NCBI RefSeq assembly: GCF_963677945.1
Contig: NZ_OY782578.1
Span: 3,191,258-3,255,257 of the forward strand
Reading direction: 5' to 3'
Origin: an uncultured Bacteroides sp.
GTDB lineage: Bacteria; Bacteroidota; Bacteroidia; Bacteroidales; Bacteroidaceae
Length of the DNA: 64,000 nt
Shown piece after piece: positions 32,949-63,700 of the stretch. A program made the position numbers and the translations under genes. The notes below the pieces were generated by a model that was given only the letters and a program-made list of their open reading frames with translations, ran no database searches and was not told the DNA's origin. Within the stretch, counting starts at the first letter, position 1. Each line of letters starts with the position of its first letter.

Positions 32949-34121
32949 ATGTATTTATGCGAACAAACATGGCGTTGGTACGGTCCTAACGATCCAGTTT
33001 CCCTTTGGGATATCAAACAGGCCGGTGCTACCGGAATAGTGAACGCCTTACACCATATACCTAACGGAGAAGTATGGACTGTAGAGGAAATTATGAAGCG
33101 TAAGGAACTTATTGAATCTGTAGGTCTTACATGGTCTGTTGTTGAAAGTGTTCCTGTGCACGAACACATAAAAACACAGACTGGAGATTTTCAGAAATAC
33201 ATTGATAATTATAAAGAGTCTCTTCGCAACTTAGGCAAGTGTGGAATTAATATTGTAACTTACAATTTCATGCCGGTACTCGACTGGACTCGTACCGATT
33301 TGGCTTACACCATGCCCGATGGTTCTAAAGCACTTCGTTTTGAAAGAGCTGCTTTTGTTGCTTTCGACTTGTTCCTTTTGAAACGTCCCGGCGCTGAAAA
33401 TGAATATTCTGCAGAAGAAAAAGCAAAAGCTAAAGCACGTTTCGAAGAAATGACCGACGAAGACAAGCATACATTGGAACGCAATATTATAGCTGGTTTA
33501 CCGGGTTCTGAAGAGAGCTTTACACTTGTACAATTCCAGGAAGCACTCGACCGTTATAATGACATCGATGCAGAGAAACTTCGTGAGAACTTAATCTATT
33601 TCCTAAGAGAAATTACTCCTGTTGCAGATGAAGCTGGTGTGTATCTGGTTATTCACCCGGATGATCCACCTCAGTCTATTCTTGGTTTACCTCGTATCCT
33701 CAGTACAGGAGATGATTTCCAGAAGCTGATTGATGCCGTTCCGAACAAATCAAACGGCCTATGTTTATGTACCGGTTCTTTTGGTGTGGCTGCTCATAAT
33801 GATTTAGTTGGAATTATGAGACGTTTCGGAGATCGTGTAAACTTTGTGCATTTCCGTAGCACTCAGCGCGATGAAGAAGGAAACTTCTATGAAGCAAACC
33901 ATCTAGAGGGTAATGTAGACATGTATCACGTAATGAAGGCATTACTCGAACTTGAACAAGAACGTAAGGTTTCTATCGCAATGAGACCGGATCATGGACA
34001 TCAGATGATTGATGACTTGAAAAAGAAAACTAATCCGGGATATTCTTGTATCGGTCGCCTTAGAGGATTGGCAGAATTACGTGGACTTGAAATGGGTATT
34101 GCTAAATCTCTATTCGAATAG
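32949..34121 (+). CDS. uxuA: Mannonate dehydratase
   Basis: 390 residues, normal family length. It begins [19 protein letters not shown], a UxuA landmark (RWYGPxDPV), with TIM-barrel segments [40 protein letters not shown] and [13 protein letters not shown] providing the metal-binding His, Cys and Asp residues. It converts D-mannonate to 2-keto-3-deoxygluconate in hexuronate catabolism. Last gene of the operon; a strong terminator follows. UxaC and KDG kinase/aldolase are not in this window. Confidence 0.95.
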
Positions 34122-34216: not shown

Positions 34217-34253
34217 CCGACCGGAATGTTTCTGCATTACCGGTCGGTTTTTT
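34217..34253 (+). terminator. Terminator of the hexuronate operon
   Basis: Stem CCGACCGG/CCGGTCGG (34217-34224 with 34240-34247) followed by six T residues. Confidence 0.9.
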
Positions 34254-34290
34254 ATGTATAATCACCACTACAATATATTAAAATACAAAA

Positions 34291-34408
34291 TATATCTAGC
34301 AGTCTAGCACCAATCATTTAACACTTTGTGAATGAATCGAATACAGGCGCTAGACTTTTGCAAAGAAGTCTAGCGGTAGTCTAGTAGTCTAGCACTTTGT
34401 CTCGTCCT
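34291..34408 (+). repeat. Interspersed element, family A (CTAG words), copy 1
   Basis: Six CTAG words at 34296, 34304, 34350, 34370, 34381 and 34389 (gaps 8, 46, 20, 11, 8), within a longer matching stretch ending TAGTCTAGCACTTTGTCTCGT. The second copy at 60279-60400 lies in the opposite orientation and has the mirror-image gaps 8, 11, 20, 46, 8. The words GCTAGACTT/AAGTCTAGC form a 9-bp hairpin. Located after the hexuronate terminator. Confidence 0.85.
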
Positions 34409-34449
34409 GATTTAAGCAATAGCCTAAGCATATCTTACTTTTTTATTGA

Positions 34450-34520
34450 CCAATAAATAAAAATCATTGGCCAATAAATTCAAATGAATGACCAATAAAA
34501 TAAAACCATTGGTGAATAAT
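34450..34520. repeat. Four CCAAT-like words at exact 21-nt period (cluster 3)
   Basis: CCAATAAAT (34450), CCAATAAAT (34471), CCAATAAAA (34492) and TGAATAAT (34513) are exactly 21 nt apart. The same word, number and period occur at 24348-24420, 10.1 kb away. With the family A copy just upstream it fills the spacer between uxuA and the next gene; nothing else is seen in that 516-nt gap apart from the terminator and the promoter. Confidence 0.85.
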
Positions 34521-34625
34521 CTGGGAGATTATATAAGTCGATGAAAATTGTATAAAATAAACTAAAGGGCTAATTACTATTCATAAATAACTTACACTAA
34601 GTATCTGTAGTAGCTCTTTTTTAAT

Positions 34626-60278: not shown

Positions 60279-60400
60279 CTGGAACGAGACAAAGTGCTAG
60301 ACTGCTAGACTATCGCTAGACTTTATCGGGTATATCTAGCGCCTATATAGCACTAACAGTCAGCAGGTTAAATACTCCCCGCTAGACTGCTAGACTATTT
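60279..60400 (-). repeat. Interspersed element, family A (CTAG words), copy 2
   Basis: CTAG words at 60297, 60305, 60316, 60336, 60382 and 60390 (gaps 8, 11, 20, 46, 8), the mirror of copy 1 at 34291. On the minus strand it reads TAGTCTAGCAGTCTAGC at its left end and GTCTAGCACTTTGTCTCGTT at its right end, nearly identical to copy 1, while the middle has diverged. Located just after the tRNA-Arg terminator. Confidence 0.85.
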
Positions 60401-60439
60401 TGAGATTTTTAATTTTTATGAGAGATGTGATATTTCGTC

Positions 60440-63400
60440 TTACTCATCAGACGGACAGGTTTCTAACAAATAAATAGCATCCAAACTCCATGTAGCGACT
60501 TCATTAGTACTCACAAATGGAATCTCATCAATTGGAGCAGGCACTTCCGGAGGCAAAATGCGGGAAGTTTTAAGGGGCGGTAATGTTTTGTTCTTTCCCC
60601 AACGCAATAAATCATTCCAGGCCTCTTTACCCATTTCCGGTTTCTGCATATTATAAGCAGCATAACCTAACAATCGGGAAATACGGAAGTGATTATTACT
60701 AATCTCTGCAGCTTTTTTCTTATAATTTTCAGCATGATCCAGCCATACCTTATTCCATTCCGGAACATTTACCATTCTTTGCAATTCATTCATAATTTCA
60801 AAGCCACCCATTATAGTCATCAGATGATTTGTATTTTGCATTGCCGAGTCACCTTCATAGGTTATCATTCCTGTAGCAGGATCAAATCCTAAAGCTTTCG
60901 GTCCGCTAAACAGTCCATGTTTTAAAGATGCAATACTTTTCATTCCGGTAAGAATCTTATCCCGATAAGTAGTATTGCGCGTACGCTCCCACTCTGTCAT
61001 CCAATTGCCAGCATACGCCAACCAATCCGGACCAATTCGCAAACGAGCCGGAGCAGTACAAGGATAAAGACTGCGAGGTTCTGCCAAACGCATAGGGTCA
61101 AGTGTATAAAGTTTCTGCTCAGCATCTTTAACTTCTTTCATCAAATCACCGCAACGTTCGTCGGTTGTCAGATAATAATAAAAGCGATTCCAGGCAGCCT
61201 GACTTATACGTGCTTCTTTCGCACCACATCCCCAGTGGCTTACATTATGACGACTTCCTAATCCTGCGTTTTCTCCTATATGATAAACATCAACCTCGGC
61301 AGTATGCCGGGTCATTGCTTTAGCCATCTTCCAGATATCAGCACGTCCGGTACGCAGGAAATTATACCATAACCACATATTTGAGCCTAATTCAGTATTA
61401 TCCCAGGCAAATCCTCCTACATCATACCGCCATTCATGCCGAACAGGATCGTAAGCATGCATTACATCTCCGTAATTCCAGAAGCCATACCATTTATTCT
61501 GTTCTATAGTTTTTTGGTAAAAATCAATATACCCATTCAATCTATCTTCAATCTTAGCACGGAAAGGAGTACTATTATCGGGTAAACTCCATACTCCAAA
61601 AGCTTCTTGTCGTTGCAAGTACTCAGGAGAACACATTAAAGGTGAATCGGCCGATAGAGCTTTTGCTATTTTTGCAATACCTGCTTTACCGGGATATGCA
61701 GGTTGAGGAACAATTGTCAGTGTATGTGTACGTGCAATACCATAAGGCGTACTTAGTCCTTCCTGCACATCTTCATAACTCGCATTCAAATCATGAGCTA
61801 CTTTATCGTAATGACGCAAGTCCATAGCTTCTGCTTCAGGACTCCATAACCACATTGTGATTGCTGCAGTATCTTTCCGTGCATTATCTACCTCGAGAGA
61901 AGATGGATAAGACTGCCAGAAATCGTGCAGACAAATTCCTAGTCCACCACTGACATCTCCAGCAAATACATATCCATTGGAACGAGTTCCAGAGAAAGTC
62001 CCTATCCAGGGATTATCATCTGTAGCACGTTTACGGATACTAAAAGCATCAGCATTTAATTGAGACAAGCGAAAGCCGTCCCATGATGCCCACTTATCAA
62101 GCAAATCGCGGTTCTCAGCATCAAACTTTTCATATTCAGGGATACGTTTGCCTTCCATCTGTTGTTGCTGAAGAGTATTATCTTCATTTAAAGTCAGAAC
62201 ACGTCTTCCTACCAAAGGTTGTACCGGTTCACTCCATACTCCGCCATCTGCCCCCGAGAATGCTATATGACGATTATACACGGCTTCACGCATAGGTACT
62301 TCAATGCGTATTCCAAGAGAGTGAATATAATCTTTATTCTGATCACCATTATAAACAAAGGTATGTACCATCTTTATCTGATCACTGCCTTTATATAGAT
62401 AAAAACGGATAGTAAAAGGCAATAACTCACGACCATTAGTTTTATGCACTCCTTCTATCTTCACAACTATGCGTACAGCACCATTCTGTTCAATTTCAAC
62501 CTTCTTTATTTCACTCTTATAGTTGGTAAAATGAATCTGATCTGTATTTTCGGCCAAAGGTTTATCCTGTGTCTGGCAAATCAAATAAGCTCTACCTCCT
62601 ACCTTAACATCGCCATACCAAAGACCTTCTAATAAATATTCACCAGATTTGGGAAATACAGCCTTAATTATACCTGTATTTACCTCAAAAGCATTGTTTT
62701 TACTAACAACAGGCATTAACTCAGCCTTTTTCTTTGATGCTTCATTAATCTGCAGCTTTAACTGATTAGTTGAAGCAGGTATTACAGCCGATACCCCACC
62801 CCATTTTACTGAACCATCAGGCCAATAAGCCAATGGCCACATATCTGTAGAGAGCTGTTTTCCATCAGCAGAAAAAAGAGCGACAGTTTTATTATGAGTA
62901 AGGCTACCTTGGGTAAATGGAACTCCAAAGCTTACTGGAGTATTAATTGACGGTACATCGCCTATCCATCTCAGACTGACAGGTTCCTTTTCGACATTAT
63001 TGCAAGTATACTGGAAATTTGTAATACGAGTACGGGATAAAGTTGTACGGAAACCAAACCAGCCGGAGGTAAGAGGATTAGTATCACGAAAGTCAACCAA
63101 ACGTTTGCCATTCATATAATAGCTCACCTTATTACCTTTGCTCATAATTTTAATATGATACCATTTATTAGGTTTAAGCAAATGTTCGCTATCAGTATAT
63201 TCACGCAAAATGGCCGGTTGAAAAGCTTTATCCTTTATACCCCGTTCATCTCCATTATACCGGCGGAAACGTGTTGTTGAATTACTATTTCCCCCATATC
63301 CCAAATAGTAGAGCTGCAAAGAATAACAATTCATAAAGATACCATTACGCCAGTTCTTTCTTTTCAGGATATCATTCGGGCATTTAGGATCAGACGCCAT

Positions 63401-63700
63401 CCAGAAACAATTCAGGTCGCTCAACCGATCCCCTTTTTTACCTTTATCCATAACACATGCGTCATATTCTATGGTAGTTTCACCATTCATCTTTTCCTTG
63501 CGCCACAGAGTAAGTCCTTTCGGTGAAAGAATTTCCACAGTATCGCCCAAGAAAGTTATTTTATAATCAGGTGACTCCGATTCCACACTCCAGAATTTAT
63601 TAAATTGCCTGGCATTTAAAGCCGACAACTGTTTAGTTTGAGCTGATGAAATAAAAGGGACCAAACAAAAGCTGAAAATCCAAAATAATCTATTTTTCAT
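60440..63700 (-). CDS. PL26-like rhamnogalacturonan exolyase (PcRGLX/YetA type) with N-terminal DUF6250-like domain
   Basis: 1086 residues, signal peptide MKNRLFWIFSFCLVPFISSAQ. Residues ~30-235 form a concanavalin-like beta domain (WHYIKIMSKGNKVSYYMNGK-type lectin strands; here KWYHIKIMSKGNKVSYYMNG). From ~245 the PcRGLX/YetA signature SINTPVSFGVPFTQGSL and LAYWPDGSVKW opens the main part, followed by a helical toroid (KHGLFSGPKALGF; NNHFRISRLLGYAAY). PL26 enzymes release unsaturated galacturonosyl-rhamnose from rhamnogalacturonan I ends. The gene sits 18 nt downstream of a PL11 gene on the same strand, supporting pectin use. Confidence 0.82.
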   Translation of the reverse strand: MKNRLFWIFSFCLVPFISSAQTKQLSALNARQFNKFWSVESESPDYKITFLGDTVEILSPKGLTLWRKEKMNGETTIEYDACVMDKGKKGDRLSDLNCFWMASDPKCPNDILKRKNWRNGIFMNCYSLQLYYLGYGGNSNSTTRFRRYNGDERGIKDKAFQPAILREYTDSEHLLKPNKWYHIKIMSKGNKVSYYMNGKRLVDFRDTNPLTSGWFGFRTTLSRTRITNFQYTCNNVEKEPVSLRWIGDVPSINTPVSFGVPFTQGSLTHNKTVALFSADGKQLSTDMWPLAYWPDGSVKWGGVSAVIPASTNQLKLQINEASKKKAELMPVVSKNNAFEVNTGIIKAVFPKSGEYLLEGLWYGDVKVGGRAYLICQTQDKPLAENTDQIHFTNYKSEIKKVEIEQNGAVRIVVKIEGVHKTNGRELLPFTIRFYLYKGSDQIKMVHTFVYNGDQNKDYIHSLGIRIEVPMREAVYNRHIAFSGADGGVWSEPVQPLVGRRVLTLNEDNTLQQQQMEGKRIPEYEKFDAENRDLLDKWASWDGFRLSQLNADAFSIRKRATDDNPWIGTFSGTRSNGYVFAGDVSGGLGICLHDFWQSYPSSLEVDNARKDTAAITMWLWSPEAEAMDLRHYDKVAHDLNASYEDVQEGLSTPYGIARTHTLTIVPQPAYPGKAGIAKIAKALSADSPLMCSPEYLQRQEAFGVWSLPDNSTPFRAKIEDRLNGYIDFYQKTIEQNKWYGFWNYGDVMHAYDPVRHEWRYDVGGFAWDNTELGSNMWLWYNFLRTGRADIWKMAKAMTRHTAEVDVYHIGENAGLGSRHNVSHWGCGAKEARISQAAWNRFYYYLTTDERCGDLMKEVKDAEQKLYTLDPMRLAEPRSLYPCTAPARLRIGPDWLAYAGNWMTEWERTRNTTYRDKILTGMKSIASLKHGLFSGPKALGFDPATGMITYEGDSAMQNTNHLMTIMGGFEIMNELQRMVNVPEWNKVWLDHAENYKKKAAEISNNHFRISRLLGYAAYNMQKPEMGKEAWNDLLRWGKNKTLPPLKTSRILPPEVPAPIDEIPFVSTNEVATWSLDAIYLLETCPSDE

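Follow-up and report, generated by a model that had tools for sequence, protein, structure and literature searches.

Why do two places in one Bacteroides chromosome carry six CTAG words each, at identical mirror-image steps? The words lie on opposite strands of a 64-kb stretch (called the window here) of the 4.57-Mb chromosome G000; other G numbers denote related genomes and L numbers loci. The initial annotation described the two places as an inverted pair of ~120-nt elements and pointed to the general rarity of CTAG. The mirrored spacing agrees exactly with the coordinates (Table 1), and CTAG is depleted in the window, with 70 occurrences against 188 expected from shuffles; 12 of the 70 fall inside the two elements, which are named unit 1 and unit 2 in the following. 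We propose, with a probability of roughly 0.55, that the CTAG unit is a dispersed, origin-like site of 139 nt, which is likely recognised and copied by the HU-HIG and VapE-type proteins whose genes it brackets. The partnership of the units with these genes is well supported; the mechanism by which the units would be copied is one that we infer. The observations behind this proposal are a repeat family of fixed architecture, its bracket around the HU-HIG and VapE genes in six genomes, lineage-specific words common to the VapE-flanking and the dispersed units of one genome, and replacement of units in place between sister species, in which the breaks fall at the words or close to them.

A dispersed repeat family of fixed architecture

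The spaced CTAG pattern was run over the whole genome with a middle gap of 36 to 48 allowed. It gave 13 matches in G000, all with a span of 97 nt, and none in the reversed control. A covariance model of the CTAG-word unit (R1) found 28 full copies in G000 at E<1e-5, and in a screen of 158 genomes of the genus, in which no more than 20 candidates were scored for each genome, it matched nine. The similarity is therefore not that of two copies left by one inverted duplication, and the initial annotation was right in assuming an interspersed repeat under strict spacing. The two window elements do not form a special inverted pair but are two dispersed members of the family. Their six-CTAG core is real, but the length of ~120 nt was too short, as 13 copies brought onto one strand align without gaps over ~139 nt.

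The head of the unit is an A/T-rich stretch, often beginning CTCTCA-AAAA, which is followed by TCTAGC-RR-TCTAGC. The middle is variable apart from a fixed TAA and a TTGA-AAT-like motif. It is followed by a hairpin of the form GCTAGAYTT-8 nt-AAGTCTAGC and by the tail, where TCTAGC-RR-TCTAGC recurs at a distance of exactly 85 nt from the head pair. Each unit holds six words of ~8 nt, and the direct words of its pairs read TCTAGCRRTCTAGC. A single unit has direct repeats at both ends and no terminal inverted repeat; inversion occurs only in paired forms. Inward-facing pairs of ~388 bp were found twice in G000 and twice in G003, besides shorter or decayed ones, and one inward-facing pair measures 3,024 bp. 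In three solo forms of 54-62 nt the part that separates the direct word pairs is missing (E 6.5e-4, 0.013 and 0.47). The 388-bp pairs L091 and L092 (G000 near 309782 and 4559094) have a conserved centre of ~110 nt. On one side their homology continues for another ~350 bp (86.7% over 743 nt), and therefore a longer form of ~735 bp exists.

All 28 copies are intergenic with respect to the predicted open reading frames, with an overlap of at most 7 nt. In 20 of 28 copies the head points toward a gene's 3' end (two-sided p 0.036), or in 20 of 24 if L059, L060, L063 and L067, which are inner partners of inverted pairs, are left aside; the tail side has no bias toward gene ends (15/28). Over the 13 aligned copies 93.2% of the hairpin cells are paired, compared with 29-35% in slid controls, and in eight cells both sides have changed, a number that was reached in 0 of 500 shuffles. 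Intergenic position, orientation and covariation would suit a cis-acting RNA or transcription element of 3' untranslated regions which is kept by selection and linked to VapE only incidentally. We regard this explanation as very unlikely. Two word versions, AGTCTAGC and GATCTAGC, are found in the G000 family, and in the 13-copy alignment the words of one unit tend to switch jointly, outside the hairpin as well as in its arms, which pairing of an RNA does not need. Counted by hairpin pairs, three have changed on both sides, and 61 of 500 shuffles match this count. Folded as RNA, eight units have modest z-scores (-1.1 to -4.0). Unit 1 is positioned past a terminator-like stem, and in three relatives the orthologous gene has no unit.

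Units bracket HU-HIG and VapE-type genes

The 3,024-bp pair encloses a gene for a HU-HIG protein of 132 amino acids and a gene for a VapE-type protein of 693 amino acids (PF05272, E 1.1e-28) with BT4734-like_N, VapE-like and DUF3874 domains. In G000 one unit stands 2 nt from the VapE stop codon, and unit 2 of the window shares 93% identity with one unit of this bracket. The bracket is present in all six genomes with at least ten R1 units, namely G000, G003, G163, G165, G166 and G063 (B. luti). VapE-type matches as such are widespread in the genus (123 of 158 genomes). All nine genomes matched by R1 have a VapE at least 66% identical to that of G000; in G089, G090 and G055 VapE is 63-67% identical and an R1 match is absent, and every other listed VapE match reaches at most 52%. 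HU-HIG adjoins VapE in 37 of 49 loci (34 of 46 distinct ones), and it lies between the units in each of the 15 loci with two units (L165-L170, L181-L183, L226-L228, L230, L231, L235).

The Walker A and B motifs of the VapE proteins are intact, KST and DE being invariant in all 38 sequences. VapE resembles the structure of PriRep1 (7pds) in its fold and, weakly, in sequence (E 7e-12). PriRep1 is the Rep protein of a Staphylococcus aureus pathogenicity island (SaPI). SaPIs are phage satellites.

The initial annotation had looked to transposases or reverse transcriptases as partners. What the repeat brackets and co-occurs with are VapE-type and HU-HIG genes, and the Y1 transposase (PF01797), the one transposase or reverse-transcriptase family screened, had no match in the two repeat-bearing genomes covered, G000 and G003; overall it matched 2 of 11 genomes, and also 5 of 14 controls. 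An unlikely alternative is that the units are MITE-like ends (MITE, miniature inverted-repeat transposable element) of non-autonomous transposons. A conventional transposase with its gene at another place would move them, and HU-HIG and VapE would be passengers. The 388-bp, ~605-bp and 3.0-kb inverted pairs do resemble MITEs and a transposon with 139-nt ends, and on a contig of a metagenome-assembled genome from soil, units stand at both ends of a segment of ~6 kb with different cargo. Against this, single units end in direct repeats in place of a terminal inverted repeat, and the annotated genes within the brackets of L089 and L181 are HU-HIG and VapE, joined in L181 by a Bro-N protein. It would also need each VapE lineage to have been captured independently, by a different repeat family and in a similar arrangement.

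The segment of the soil contig (JAFNAQ010000040.1, L103 1198-7892) has possible cargo of a defence-like kind. Encoded there are a metallophosphatase, a D12 adenine methyltransferase, an ORC-CDC6-like ATPase and one protein with matches to the CARF6 models of PADLOC.

The same architecture with other words

Other VapE loci of Bacteroides (L181-L185) have inverted units of ~140 nt with the word CTATCAT. A model of these units (R2) detected them in 11 of 158 genomes, including inward-facing pairs of ~605 bp distant from VapE. The architecture was also searched for without specifying a word, as a tandem word pair followed by a hairpin and a tail word. In the window this word-agnostic scan returned exactly units 1 and 2, and nothing in three shuffles; it recovered 24 of the 30 R1 loci of G000. 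Units were found at 32 of 49 VapE loci (31 of 46 if three loci that were fetched twice are counted once), where the few extra matches are visible false positives. The controls gave one match in 12 loci and six non-CTAG matches in 300 kb of partly overlapping DNA. Words at the VapE loci include AGTCACGC, AGTCCCAC, TCTTCCA, TTCTCAT, CTATCACC and CTGCTAC-like forms. Across the order, VapE-like matches occur in 20 of 119 genomes. Units such as those with TTACTAC or TTACCAC were present at 11 of 29 fetched VapE loci, some of which overlap and five of which come from the genus itself.

Dispersed units share the word of the VapE locus of their own genome. This applies to all loci read in G092 (4/4, one of them mixed with AGTCCCGC; a fifth match lies outside these four), G082 (3/3) and G115 (1/1). 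Units with the word ATCCCTCAC flank the second VapE paralogue of G000. Six of six related genomes contain hairpins of this word, 17 in all and at least one per genome at a place other than the paralogue, and the control has none; 15 of the 16 places that were fetched are units according to the word-agnostic scan. A further VapE paralogue of G000 (L268, G000:C1:1663609-1665678) contains an in-frame TAG, and no unit was found beside it.

The units may, as a tentative generalisation, represent a repeat class of the whole Bacteroidales that is driven by an initiator-type helicase with a dead primase together with HU-HIG and not by a transposase. Word and partner would co-evolve, and orthogonal systems would coexist in one genome. 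In such a class the HU-HIG/VapE pair would read the word of its lineage, copy the unit and overwrite resident units in place at the word boundaries.

Turnover of units in place

For 14 of the 28 units of G000 a counterpart in B. luti was compared with both flanks matched (90-96% alike). The sample is biased to intact units, as most B. luti loci were fetched by the word pattern. The identity of the units was 0.96-0.98 at four places, 0.79-0.86 at three and 0.64-0.72 at seven, and all seven replaced units of G000 are nearer to a G000 paralogue (0.78-0.93) than to their own orthologue. Since units between well-conserved flanks have either kept an identity of ~97% or been replaced as a whole (64-72%), they turn over in place. 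In L045/L145 the agreement stops one or two bases short of the first word. In L053/L112 it holds from the last word onward and the A/T-rich head is partly changed, and L062/L116 have their break at an inner word. The site of unit 1 is occupied by a GATC version in G163 and B. luti, by an AGTC version in G000 and by a unit with the word AGTCACGC in G082; G003, G165 and G166 have no unit there.

The mosaic unit at L062/L116 fits recombination between copies, and the solo forms lack exactly the 85 nt between the direct repeats. Both would be expected of passive repeats which are homogenised solely by RecA-dependent gene conversion, with no dedicated machinery today. Conversion between copies of ~100 nt that are 65-75% alike would, however, be inefficient. 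It also leaves the units beside VapE and the co-divergence of the words unexplained, and we consider this explanation quite improbable.

Proposed role of the HU-HIG and VapE proteins

That HU-HIG and VapE bind the units is suggested by the position of the units, their architecture and the co-divergence of their words; that they copy them, by dispersal, inverted pairs and in-place replacement. VapE, as a helicase of the replication-initiator type with intact Walker motifs and a degenerate primase active site, would bind the array of words, and HU-HIG would bend or mark it. The unit might then be opened or copied and anneal at words elsewhere, by strand exchange or template switching, which would overwrite old units and seed new ones. 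The 388-bp and 3.02-kb inward-facing pairs could be the larger forms that replicate or move. Single units and solo forms of 54 nt could be products or remnants.

Several observations weigh against this proposal. Binding, replication and movement of the units are all steps that we infer. In the archaeo-eukaryotic primase (AEP) domain of the 38 VapE sequences, motif I (expected hhhDhD/E) reads E/Q/S/T-[VI]-[NGK], and the expected position of motif II is K in 38 of 38. AEP motif II carries the catalytic histidine. Priming by VapE is unlikely, because the AEP catalytic residues are unconserved in all 38 sequences. VapE lies inside the bracket in nine of the 15 two-unit loci and just outside in six, so HU-HIG may be the real partner; it is as good a candidate for the reader of the words as VapE. 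At 17 of 49 VapE loci (15 of 46 distinct ones) the word-agnostic scan found no unit within 1.5 kb. AGTC- and GATC-type words occur with nearly identical HU and VapE proteins, and therefore changes of the word are not always linked to the partner. G009, G044 and G145 retain a CTATCAT unit where HU-HIG/VapE is deleted, and their intact VapE locus uses TTCTCAT. The phylogenetic co-occurrence of unit and VapE is confounded by relatedness. Ordinary gene conversion could also produce the replacement of units in place. Empty sites in relatives, for which the initial annotation had suggested looking, exist insofar as the unit is absent from the orthologous place in G003, G165 and G166, but the flanks are too diverged for a clean site, and neither a clean empty site nor a target duplication was found.

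The operon deletions in G145, G009 and G044 (among loci L195, L196, L198 and L194/L207) leave one unit each. In G062, from the same set of loci, VapE appears internally deleted between its two units.

Relation to known systems

We know of no role that has been assigned to the HU-HIG/VapE pair. A literature search in titles and abstract openings, with most subscription papers outside its scope, found no link of VapE or HU-HIG to interspersed repeats. The REP/REPIN-RAYT systems (REPtrons) also consist of dispersed extragenic hairpin repeats, as singles and inverted dimers, with a partner gene flanked by repeats and with coexisting families that each have their own partner (PMC3733652). They differ in the partner, which is a Y1 HUH transposase and not HU-HIG with a VapE-type helicase, and in the repeat, a palindrome of 20-40 bp tagged GTAG or CGTC (PMC3733652) in contrast to a gap-free unit of 139 nt with six CTAG words; the word of the units, moreover, varies by lineage. 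SaPI origins share the arrangement of short iterons as an array that directly follows the gene of an initiator helicase (PMC7581432), and the likeness extends to their Rep proteins through the match of VapE to PriRep1. A SaPI has its own origin, whereas the units are scattered over the chromosome, the AEP site of VapE is degenerate and the role of the units as origins would be an assumption of our proposal. The minimal replicon of pRN1 is likewise a module of ~3.1 kb, with genes for a small repressor and a replication protein and a required stem-loop just downstream (PMC4234260). It belongs to an archaeal plasmid with a single stem-loop, and its abstract does not mention dispersed copies (PMC4234260). 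PINSR is a 188-bp repeat of Prevotella intermedia with ~180 copies, the source of which was left open by its authors (PMC4755523). By description, it is similar to the units in being intergenic, non-coding, free of terminal inverted repeats and restricted to a lineage (PMC4755523). None of these systems has all features of the units.

If the link is true, word-specific hairpin repeats would give the HU-HIG/VapE pair a substrate, and a REPIN-like system with a replication-type partner would be at hand. For PINSR and other orphan repeats, a proposal open to testing would follow. A drifting word that stays coherent over six sites per unit and many units per genome would be a natural experiment in the co-evolution of protein and DNA.

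The window units and their neighbours

Table 1. Features of units 1 and 2 and adjacent features, in window coordinates.
Feature	Position	Strand	Details
CTAG starts, unit 1	34296, 34304, 34350, 34370, 34381, 34389	+	steps 8-46-20-11-8
CTAG starts, unit 2	60390, 60382, 60336, 60316, 60305, 60297	-	identical steps 8-46-20-11-8
Unit 1, 139 nt, head to tail	34265..34403	+	R1 138.2 bits, E 1.4e-29; 13-copy gap-free alignment
Head word pair of unit 1, TCTAGC-AG-TCTAGC	34295..34308	+	nearly invariant alignment columns 31-44
Hairpin of unit 1, GCTAGACTT - 8 nt - AAGTCTAGC	34349..34374	+	sequence
Tail word pair of unit 1, TCTAGT-AG-TCTAGC	34380..34393	+	85 nt past head pair; spacing repeated in other copies
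Unit 2, 139 nt	60286..60424	-	R1 139 bits, E 8.8e-30
Hairpin of unit 2	60315..60340	-	sequence
Terminator-like stem CCGACCGG/CCGGTCGG and T run	34217..34253	+	after uxuA-type gene, 11 nt before head of unit 1
D-mannonate dehydratase (UxuA) gene, head side of unit 1	32949..34121	+	Pfam PF03786, E 6.3e-135
PcRGLX-like gene, 3' end 16 nt from head of unit 2	60440..63700	-	Pfam, list of open reading frames

At the gathering score, Rfam matches in the window were restricted to rRNA and tRNA. The terminator-like stem and T run are also found at the orthologous place both in G163 and G063, where the unit is present, and in G003, G165 and G166, where it is absent.

A second dispersed repeat (TTGACCAATAAATAAAAATCATTGGCCAATAAATTC and kin; window 34439-34522) lies directly downstream of unit 1. 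Its matches in related genomes number at least dozens, and among those listed many belong to G165. Palindromic TGTACAAAA/TTGTACAGAAG arrays stand near several units (flanks of L100, L114, L049 and L091), and together with the CACCCGGGTG arrays in L172 and L175 they represent further repeat families of these genomes.
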